From positions 1 through 50,811 of the IMG/VR virus record IMGVR_UViG_3300020179_000049: DNA of 50,811 bases. One strand, written 5' to 3'. The DNA comes from a virus. The translations under genes and the position numbers were made by a program. The number at the start of each line of letters is the position of its first letter. Positions within the stretch are counted from its first letter, which is position 1. The notes beneath the pieces were generated by a model. It saw only the letters and a list, made by a program, of their open reading frames with translations. It was not told the origin of the DNA and did no database searches. This document shows, piece after piece, positions 866 through 45,546 of this stretch.

Positions 866-3800
866 TCAAGTTCTTATAATCTTATATTCAACGTTATTAA
901 ATTGCGGAATAACCTCGTATACAAGAGAAGGTACAGTTGGTTTTCCAAAATTTTGAGCATTTGTAGTATCAATCGTTAAATTAGTTGTGTTCGTTATCCC
1001 AGTGCTCGAGTTTACAGTAATCAAATTTCCAGTTATATCATTGATTGTTTTAAGAAGCGTCGTTCCATCAACCTTTAATCTAATTTTATCGTTGGTTGTG
1101 ATAAATTTTGCAACAACATTTGTATTACCGACGACTTTTATTATTGCATTACCGCTTTGAATATGCGCACGACCCTCTCCTATCAAAATACAAGGACTTT
1201 CAATATTTAGTGAGTTATTATTAGCAATTACAGTAATTGTTTTAGCAAATGATCTTGTTGCATTTGAAGAGTTTACTATAATTATGTCGTTTACATTTGC
1301 GATTACATCAAAGCTCTCTGCACCACCTATTACATTATTTGCCTCGTATGTAATTGAACAATTACCTATAAATGTGTTAGAAGGTACTACAATCGCATGG
1401 CTATTTGTATTTACGATTGGACCAGCAGTGTGAATAACTGGTACAACATGTATTGGAAGTAATTTTGTGCCTGTCGGGTGCGAAACATCGAAAATCGTTT
1501 TCTTGTATGTATCAAAGCTCTCTTCAGAAACTAACGAATACGAGAAATTATGGTATCGATCGCTGTCTTGCAATCGTTTTTCTGAACTTACATGTCCATC
1601 TGTATTTAAATAAAACCCATTAAAACGAATCAAACCATTCAAAAATTCAGCATTAGCCTTTGCTTTAGCATTTCCGTAAGATACTGGATAAGTTTTTCCA
1701 TATGCATTGGCATTAGCAGTCGCGATTCCAGTATTATGGATGTTAGAGAATATACCAATTTGATTGGCACGTGTTACCACAATATCACCTGCTGTTGGCG
1801 TTCCTGAATAATTGAATACACGAAGAACTGTATTTGATTCATATAATCCATCAACAATACCAGTAAACGTTCTAGCATTGTTTGGTCCTTGAAAAATTAC
1901 ATCATTTTCTTTTATACTAGAGATATTTGTTGTGTTACCAGAGATGAATAAATCAAAAATCTTTAATGAAACATTTGGTCTCAAGATGTAATCTGAACCA
2001 CGATCTATAAGAGTAAAATCAATGATTTCGCCTAAAAGACCCGCAGTAGCATTTATCTGCTCTCCATCACCAAGTAAATATGCTCGTAAAACAGCACCAC
2101 TTCCAGCTCCACCTACTGTAACTGTTGGAGCAACTGGATACCCTTCACCTCTATTCGATATCGCGATTGCAGTGATTGCGCCACCAGCCCCAACAGAGGA
2201 AACAGTTGCAGCAGCACCAAATCCTGTACCGCCGAATATTAATGGAGTGCTGACAGTGTATCCAGATCCACCGTTCTCAATCTCAATTTGTGCAATAACT
2301 CCCATACTTGAAATAACAGGTCGATTGTCTATTCTCAATGTCTTATTTAAAATGTTTAATTCATTAATATTAGTTTCAAATGGTCTGTCTAAAAATACAG
2401 TGCGTGTTGCGCCGTCATAATCTATAATTGTTCTAAATTGATGCTCTAGTTTTATTCTTCTTCTAGAATAAAAATCATTAATTGAAGAAAATTCTGATGA
2501 AAGTCTGAATGATGCATTAGATTTGTTATAACTGAAAAATTTACCAGGAGTGAGTGACACAAACCCAGAAATAGATAAATCACTTTCATATAACGATGCA
2601 ACGTTTAATAATGCAGGGGGATCGCTATCGAAATCTGCTCCTCCCGAAATAATTGTTGTAGTTTGAATTGGATATAAAGTCAATGTTTCATAATAAAATG
2701 CACCACCAACTCTAGAGTCAATCGATGTAGTTAGCATTAAGCTGCTTGTTGCATCTGGTGCTGTGGTAAGAGTAGAATTTGCGTTTAATTTTTTATCTGT
2801 CGCTGCAGCGCTGAAGGCAACGGTAACAGTTAAATGTTTAGAATTCGTTACAGAGGCAATAGTTCTTAATTCGCCATTAATCTCAATATCTTTGCCAGCT
2901 GTCAAATATGTGTAGAATCCAGGAACGCCAGCCGTAAAATCAGCAAAATTTTGATACGAAGTGTTTGCTTCAACATTTATACCAGAAATATTAACAGTTC
3001 CAATCAATGAGGTGTTTGAATTACATATTGCCATGTTATTCGCACCAATATAATCAGCTATAACGACCGCATTAATTTTTGCTCCAGTACCATCTGCTCC
3101 AGTGCCACTTACGATTCGTATCACATAATTATTATAAAAATCATTAGAGGAACTAATTGTAGGATTTGCAGCAATATTAATCGTTGTTTGTGTTGACCCT
3201 GCAGAAGTAGCAGTAAATAGTGTGGTTGGTGATGTATTGTCAAAATCAAAATGATTTTCGTATAGATAATTATTTGATTTAAATGTTATCGCGTCTGTAT
3301 TAAAGGGAATAGATATAATGTTTCCAGCAGCTGCAGTTGTATCAATGGCAGTTACAATTATATTTCCACCAGAGCCATTGCCCAAACCATCAAATGTTCC
3401 AGTTACTGGATTTGGTGTTATAATATCAACATATGTATTCGGGTATGTACTAAATCCATAGCCTTTTCTAATTATTGTTGTAGAATCTAATGAGGCTGTT
3501 GTCACATTACCGACAAGTGCAACTGCTTTTCTTTTTGTCAAAGAATTTAAATTTTGACCACCATTTATAACTACTGGGTCACCAGTTTGATATCGTTTAC
3601 CTCTTCGACGAGGATTAATTTTAAGGTTAGAAAGGCTTCCAATAATTTTTTCTCTAAAAAATTGTGCGTCTCCATTTTGATCGATATATGGAATTTCAAG
3701 AACCTCATTATTAAAAAATGCTCTTGTAACACTTGACACATAAATCTCATATATTTCTTTACTTGAAGAGACATCTATTGTCTTATAGGCTCGTTCTACA

Positions 3801-21016: not shown

Positions 21017-21259
21017 TTACAGGAACTGCTTATTTCCAGAAATAAAGTCATTGAGGCTAGTAGCCTTTGCAATTACTTCATTCTCTGAGAAATATTTTGG
21101 CAAAGTCGGAGCATGCGGTGGTTCTCTGCTAACAGTTATAGCAGCCTGAACCTCATTGTTCCATTGTTGCTCAAGAATGCTTCTTTCAGAATGATATTTT
21201 TCTGAAAGCATATCTTTTGCCAACTTAACTAATTCTAATCGAATTTCAAACGGTGTCAT
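21017..21259 (-). CDS. small conserved T4-like phage protein
   Basis: 80 aa from ATG 21259 (MTPFEIRLELVKLAKDMLSE), with GGAG 8 nt upstream. An apparent upstream extension to 21376 runs through the tmRNA and is rejected. Helical N-terminal half, then PPHAPTLPKYFSENEVIAKA and a C-terminal NKQFL. I recognise the opening as a common small protein of aquatic T4-like phages without known function. It is the first gene after the tmRNA hairpin and is followed by a terminator. Confidence 0.75.
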   Translation of the reverse strand: MTPFEIRLELVKLAKDMLSEKYHSERSILEQQWNNEVQAAITVSREPPHAPTLPKYFSENEVIAKATSLNDFISGNKQFL

Positions 21260-21299
21260 ATTCTTATCTCCTATGTGTGTTGTGTGTGTCATTATATAA

Positions 21300-21596
21300 A
21301 GAAGGGTGGGCTTTCGCCCACCGTCCTGACTCGTTCTGTTACCAAGTGAGTCAACTCTGGAAAACTTCAACTGCAATTAAGCAGCTAATGGAAGTTCCTG
21401 ATCGTAATATGCATCATTTGCATTTACAGTTTTTGCGCTGATTAAGTCAGTCGCCTCACTGGTTGCCGTCGGTTTATTACTTGCCCTGTCGAAGCCATTT
21501 CTTCCCCGTCAATTGGTGGAGAAGGTGGGAGTCGAACCCACGTCCAGAACACTTTTAGTCGTCAGTTTACAACCATTAATCAACTAAAAATTGTGG
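21300..21596 (-). ncRNA. ssrA: tmRNA, circularly permuted two-piece form
   Basis: On the minus strand the acceptor piece comes first (about 21596 to 21514): T-arm GTGGG-TTCGACT-CCCAC, acceptor strand CTTCTCC and encoded ACCA ending at 21514. Six bases later the coding piece begins at 21507 with GGGGAAGAAATGGCTTCGAC, whose first seven bases pair with CTTCTCC. The resume codon and tag (21421-21380) read ANDAYYDQELPLAA and end in TAA (21379-21377). The 3'-half-before-5'-half order is the permuted arrangement known from alphaproteobacteria, some betaproteobacteria and cyanobacteria. tmRNA rescues stalled ribosomes and tags products for proteolysis. The outer ends are estimates. Confidence 0.93.
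21305..21322 (-). terminator. Hairpin closing the tmRNA coding piece
   Basis: Minus-strand GGTGGGC-GAAA-GCCCACC followed by CTTCTTTATAT. It lies 55 nt after the tag stop codon, so it may be the 3' end of the tmRNA precursor and its terminator. Confidence 0.6.
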
Positions 21597-21734
21597 TTTA
21601 GATTGTTCACTTAATAATTTTTGCTGTTGTTCTAAATGCTTTTTATACTGTTCATTCGTCATTGCATGTAGACCAACACAAACACCAGTTGGGCTACGAC
21701 CACATCCACATTTAATTTCTTTTACCTCTGTCAT
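21576..21734 (-). CDS. tiny CDGSH-like cysteine/histidine protein
   Basis: 52 aa, ATG at 21734. MTEVKEIKCGCGRSPTGVCV then GLHAMTNEQYKKHLEQQQK. The spacing C9-x-C11-x7-C19-x3-H23 is close to the [2Fe-2S] CDGSH signature C-x-C-x2-S-x3-P-x-C-D-G-x-H (one residue shorter, DG replaced by VG). The C-terminal half is a short Gln-rich helix. Its 3' end overlaps the 5' end of the tmRNA acceptor piece by about 20 nt. Binding of Fe-S or zinc is inference. Confidence 0.7.
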   Translation of the reverse strand: MTEVKEIKCGCGRSPTGVCVGLHAMTNEQYKKHLEQQQKLLSEQSKPQFLVD

Positions 21735-45375: not shown

Positions 45376-45546
45376 TATATAGAGAAAAGTCGTTTCGAAA
45401 TTATTTCTTAGAAGTCTCGGTTCATCTATCGTCACACATTACGCACTGTGTCCTAGATTCCTAATTTACAAAAGCAGCCATCGCTGTGCGACAAACCGTA
45501 CACCGAAAGGTAGGGTGGCTGGTTGTGTATTTAGTATTTTATCTCA
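45376..45546 (-). other. non-coding leader/terminator region between the 125-aa gene and pstS
   Basis: No gene. A long stem with arms CAGCCA/TGGCTG (45475-45480, 45516-45521) encloses ACC-TTTC-GGT and is followed on the minus strand by CTTTTGT, a possible terminator of the 125-aa gene. A TATATA -10-like sequence lies near 45379. No clear Pho box was found. Confidence 0.5.

Follow-up and report, generated by a model that had tools for sequence, protein, structure and literature searches.

A circularly permuted two-piece tmRNA with a six-nucleotide junction in a T4-like phage record

The tmRNA frees stalled ribosomes and marks the incomplete protein for degradation. Two-piece forms encoded by phages were described together with Methylophilales phage Melnitz in 2022, when a count over phage genomes gave 53 two-piece cases, 50 being aquatic (PMC9004378), and a tmRNA database of 2025 holds 79 phage sequences (PMC11915505). 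The gene considered here lies on the minus strand of the window, by which we mean the whole 50,811-nucleotide stretch of DNA analysed, and adds one more example to the known two-piece phage tmRNAs rather than a new type. It occupies positions 21574-21305(-) and is circularly permuted, the acceptor half coming first, followed by CCA, six nucleotides and the coding half. Taken together, the sequence comparisons below indicate that it is very probably a functional phage-encoded two-piece tmRNA of betaproteobacterial structural type, inherited with the T4-like phage group.

With ARAGORN, a permuted tmRNA bearing the tag ANDAYYDQELPLAA is predicted at 21286-21606(-). The Rfam model for permuted tmRNA, RF04321, aligns at 21574-21377(-) over its entire length (model positions 1-213 of 213; 142.9 bits against a gathering threshold of 47; E = 3.4e-28), as does the betaproteobacterial tmRNA model, RF01850, at 21643-21300(-) (positions 1-331 of 331; 127.8 bits, gathering threshold 84). 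The original prediction was of a permuted two-piece tmRNA with a 6-nt junction and a tag ending in LAA, with a covariance-model search named as its check. Both halves do align, to full-length models and above threshold, and the three calls bear the prediction out, with CCA and GGGG where it had placed them and the LAA ending present in the ARAGORN tag. The acceptor-first order it described also stands, but the subtype is betaproteobacterial and not alphaproteobacterial: the top subtype model is RF01850, and the remaining members of the clan score below it.

The pair G3.U70 is the identity element recognised by alanyl-tRNA synthetase. The window tmRNA has this pair along with A73 and an encoded CCA, all alanine acceptor features, and G3.U70 and A73 are invariant in 15 sequences. 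The tag frame begins at an alanine resume codon and ends with a stop. The parts of the gene and its immediate surroundings are as follows.

21514-21574 (-): acceptor piece, first in the gene, comprising the P2 5' strand, T-arm, acceptor-stem 3' strand, A73 and CCA; its 5' end is taken from the covariance model and, given a conserved TAAT just before it, the piece may begin a few bases earlier
21516-21514 (-): CCA
21508-21513 (-): six-base junction ATTGAC, separating CCA from GGGG; its removal is predicted
21507-21504 (-): GGGG opening the coding half
21501-21507 (-): acceptor-stem 5' strand GGGGAAG, pairing with CTTCTCC at 21524-21518, G3.U70 included, and covarying
21525-21541 (-): T-arm GTGGG-TTCGACT-CCCAC, from the covariance model and covariation
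21461-21465 (-): P2 3' strand within the coding piece, CAACC, pairing with GGTTG at 21574-21570 of the acceptor piece
21435-21460 (-): PK1-like hairpin and pseudoknot preceding the tag, helices 6 and 7 of the alignment
21377-21421 (-): tag frame ANDAYYDQELPLAA plus TAA, with resume codon GCA
21327-21353 (-): 3' hairpin TGACTC...GAGTCA, its pairing kept with other bases in relatives
21305-21322 (-): terminator-like hairpin GGTGGGCGAAAGCCCACC, then CTTCTTT, closing the gene at its 3' end
21576-21734 (-): 52-aa ORF upstream; its stop codon finishes a single base ahead of the acceptor piece
21017-21259 (-): downstream 80-aa ORF, kept after the tmRNA in relatives L026, L027, L018 and L019

A second terminator-like hairpin, with GGTGGTGCGAACCACCA, is found at 21002-20973(-) of the window. 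A near-identical terminator directly follows the tmRNA in L010, L014, L016 and others, and terminators seem to have been exchanged between positions.

Conservation of the structure was assessed in an alignment of 15 relatives, covering the acceptor stem, T-stem, P1/P2 helices and PK1, in which 97.3% of cells are paired. Two-sided changes fall in 15 pairs and 46 cells, against 13.3 cells in shuffles and at most five in slid controls, though these counts come from related sequences and hence are not independent events. None of 500 shuffles reaches the observed covariation (score 0.276 compared with 0.120 in shuffles), and sliding the pairing partners cuts the paired cells to around 50% or less. 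The two halves pair with one another across the junction, with covariation in helices 1, 2, 3 and 5. The acceptor stem is 100% paired in four versions (AA/UU, GU/AC, AU/AU and AC/GU), and so is P2 (helix 1), which shows UA-AU and GC-AU swaps: GGTTG/CAACC in the window is matched by GGTAG/CTACC and GATAG/CTATC in relatives. The covariance-model scores and the covariation among the 15 relatives exclude a chance match, and, judged by these substitutions, the RNA is of a working type.

The tag is conserved at its ends, starting with AND or ANE and finishing with LAA in 14 of the 15 sequences (MAA in L104), while its middle differs among relatives and its leucine and alanine codons change silently. 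It is very unlikely that the gene is a defunct copy taken over from a bacterial host, when compensatory changes, silent changes in the codons of the tag end and a conserved position in diverged phages all show ongoing selection. A different possibility is that the RNA alters tagging or serves as a decoy, mainly displacing the host tmRNA or titrating SmpB and so shifting which proteins are degraded, rather than supplying extra rescue capacity. The diversity of tag middles across the window's clade would suit such a role, for which there is a precedent in phage DS6A, whose form consisting only of the tRNA-like domain inhibits host tmRNA (PMC4131195, PMC11915505). We nevertheless regard this as improbable, because the RNA retains its whole tag frame, the ends of the tag being conserved, together with PK1 and the terminator, none of which a pure decoy would need.

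The genomic setting bears on the reading of the gene as a functional tmRNA belonging to the phage. The 50.8-kb IMG/VR record is that of a T4-like phage, encoding baseplate wedge and hub, a gp32-like SSB, PhoH, a gp59-like helicase loader, an exonuclease and 23 tRNAs, in keeping with the earlier claim that the tmRNA is phage-encoded. Its place, close to genes for lysis and replication, is conserved across T4-like relatives with approximately 23-90% protein identity: small ORFs flank it on one side, while the opposite side carries an endolysin-like gene, a phrog_9582 dehydrogenase, the gp59-like loader and gp32. The same place and the same neighbours in diverged relatives indicate that the tmRNA belongs to the phage group and is not a stray capture. 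A bacterial tmRNA misassembled into a viral record might be entertained, the record being metagenomic and 50.8 kb long, but independent viral contigs carry this gene between the same phage neighbours, which already contradicts misassembly, and we consider it scarcely credible. A search for plasmid-borne tmRNA found none.

The 52-aa ORF is retained near the tmRNA in most relatives, so read-through transcription from this ORF into the tmRNA is probable in the window. Sigma-70-like promoter matches near the window tmRNA are close to chance level. In some of the 16 relatives inspected (L005, L008, L016 and L018), the acceptor half is preceded at a distance of 17-18 bases by AATAAATA, a sequence resembling the T4 late promoter TATAAATA, and the upstream sequence there differs from that of the window; transcription starting at AATAAATA may set the 5' end of the acceptor piece in these phages. 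By protein similarity, the nearest isolates are cyanophages for gp32 and Melnitz, pelagiphages and BUCT-ZZ01 for gp6, which does not settle the host. Elsewhere in the window, 45476-45520(-) matches the Rfam cis-regulatory COG2908 RNA (RF02939) with 65.3 bits against a threshold of 58.7.

The 6-nt junction had been singled out as a special feature, a view that comparison does not support: many relatives, and distant lineages too, have junctions of 4-6 nt, and those of cyanophage isolates measure 4-5 nt after A73. Using degenerate patterns over public viral contigs that allowed junctions of up to 61 nt, we gathered 106 permuted tmRNA loci, the window's included. Among them are 61 distinct junctions, with lengths from 4 nt to the 61 nt that is the upper limit of the pattern. 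Junctions of 12 nt or fewer, down to 4 nt, are present at 32 of the 106 loci (19 of the 61 distinct junctions), and the short ones are spread over several separate branches of the tree; junctions of 4-8 nt are found in 17 viral loci that are kin to the window tmRNA. Six bases are thus unexceptional among phages. A strict pattern for junctions of 0-12 nt, run without a positive control there, gave zero matches in 84,980 bacterial and archaeal genomes. The last two bases of the junction are A and then a pyrimidine in 47 of the 61 (taken singly, 51 have A at -2 and 54 have a pyrimidine at -1), as counted over distinct junctions of any length and uncorrected for kinship. Such an ending is what a shared cleavage site would predict, and it agrees with RNase P cutting ahead of G1 at any junction length.

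Within the window's clade, the junction takes one of two forms between the same flanks, either a bare 4-6 nt or 44-52 nt containing a hairpin. In close relatives this hairpin reads AUGCC-nn-CACCUC-UGCA-GNRA-UGUA-C-GUG-nn-GGC, with the tetraloop variants GCAA, GAAA, GUAA and GCGA, all GNRA, and compensatory changes at stem positions 7-32 and 8-31, although its conservation outside the tetraloop and these pairs is partly imposed by the search pattern. It is present in about 53 phage tmRNA junctions. Coordinates of three copies are listed here, the last of them beside a tRNA-Ala.

L020 6045-6095 (-): hairpin example, in a 51-nt junction
L138 about 1805-1855 (+): hairpin example
L015 4452-4493 (-): hairpin example, directly after tRNA-Ala CCA

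The same hairpin comes immediately after the CCA end of tRNA-Ala in L015, L182 and L186, lies some 125 bases after tRNA-Ala in two more phages (L174 and L178) and is found downstream of a tmRNA in another two (L141 and L168), so that all the copies detected lie downstream of RNAs that accept alanine. The hairpin has no match among Rfam families, and we have met no earlier description of this part in a limited literature search. The window holds no copy, the best match with filters off having an E-value of 1.4, and a search of 12 named phage records, run without a positive control, likewise found none.

On the core tree, hairpin and bare junctions are interleaved within the window's clade, which points to repeated loss, gain or recombination of the hairpin. 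Interchangeable junction states of this kind explain the tiny junction of the window: on the evidence of the tree the part evolves freely, and its short form is either derived or one of two alternating states. The hairpin itself may be a hitherto undescribed RNA element linked to alanine-accepting RNAs. More tentatively, the junction could be viewed as an exchangeable module, left bare at 4-6 nt or else filled by a conserved GNRA hairpin that also occurs downstream of phage tRNA-Ala, this hairpin being an undescribed element tied to the maturation or regulation of alanine-accepting RNAs and dispensed with in the window phage; we hold this to be possible, if doubtful.

How the two halves come to be cut has an ordinary candidate answer. 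The trimming of tails back to CCA by 3' exonucleases is an established part of tRNA maturation. Here the tmRNA would be co-transcribed with the small upstream ORF, and host RNase P would cut before GGGG, the predicted substrate being a closed 10-nt acceptor loop made up of ACCA and the six junction bases; 3' exonucleases would then trim the six trailing bases to expose CCA. With RNase P cleavage and exonuclease trimming, one endonucleolytic cut at the junction would suffice. Permuted tRNA genes offer a parallel, with intervening sequences of 1 to 74 bp, including a 1-nt case in an archaeon and 7-nt ones in an alga that does process its permuted pre-tRNAs (PMC3978253, a review). Short loops of this size are therefore no barrier in principle.

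The alternative that the tiny junction is specialised, reflecting either phage-specific maturation, for example by a phage nuclease, or a tmRNA kept as one uncut molecule, finds some encouragement in the recurrence of 4-6 nt within the window's clade and in a polynucleotide-kinase-like protein encoded by the record. Against this, junctions within the clade alternate between lengths of 4-6 and 44-52 nt while the flanks stay the same, the algal and archaeal tRNA genes just mentioned also have very short spacers, and an uncut molecule would have its CCA within a closed loop, leaving no free end for charging. We think specialisation of either kind distinctly improbable.

Following maturation by RNase P and exonucleases, tmRNA biology suggests that host AlaRS would charge the acceptor piece and host SmpB would carry the charged tmRNA to stalled ribosomes. 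No phage SmpB was found in 13 records, namely the window and 12 related ones, in a search whose control was detected in 10 genomes, so that the SmpB of the host would be needed. The tag, ending in LAA, would direct the released protein to ClpXP-type proteases, and the benefit to the phage may lie in the recycling of ribosomes while host RNA is being degraded. Such loci could serve to test how bacterial RNase P and exonucleases separate the halves, and what minimal spacer they need.

Among described systems, Melnitz resembles the window in having a two-piece tmRNA in a T4-like aquatic phage (PMC9004378), and is among its nearest isolates by gp6, at 39.5% identity. Its tmRNA is, however, of alphaproteobacterial type, with a 142-nt junction and a glutamine riboswitch downstream, compared with the betaproteobacterial type and 6 nt of the window, where an Rfam search did not find the riboswitch (RF01739). 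Synechococcus phages S-SSM7 and S-CAM1 also have permuted tmRNAs, and their junctions, 4 and 5 nt after A73, are short like the window's, but these RNAs are of cyanobacterial type, do not encode CCA and carry other tags. The DS6A type, limited to the tRNA-like domain and lacking a tag region, differs from the window tmRNA in that the latter has a tag frame.

Stenotrophomonas phages DLP_6 and Moby share with the window both the permuted arrangement and the betaproteobacterial type, and the tag of DLP_6, ANDDSFAPMAIAA, is similar to ANDDSFTPMALAA from the window's clade, but their junctions extend 31 and 71 nt after CCA rather than six. In several of these deposited genomes, genes for a 'hypothetical protein' overlie the tmRNA (S-SSM7, GU071098.1 21009-21227; S-CAM1, KU686192 to KU686196; Moby, MN095772.1 68236-68349), and these ORFs are probably spurious. 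Two-piece tmRNAs of betaproteobacterial type are found in Synechococcus phage BUCT-ZZ01 (L130; S. elongatus) as well as in Stenotrophomonas phages (L127 and L128), which shows that the type of a phage tmRNA need not follow its host and does not give the host away. Finally, the window tmRNA shares with the RF04321 and RF01850 consensus the order of the halves, the acceptor stem with G3.U70, the T-arm, P2 and the tag frame; it differs in a junction of 6 nt where the model consensus has roughly 23-27 nt, and in being phage-encoded, with a phage ORF as its 5' flank.
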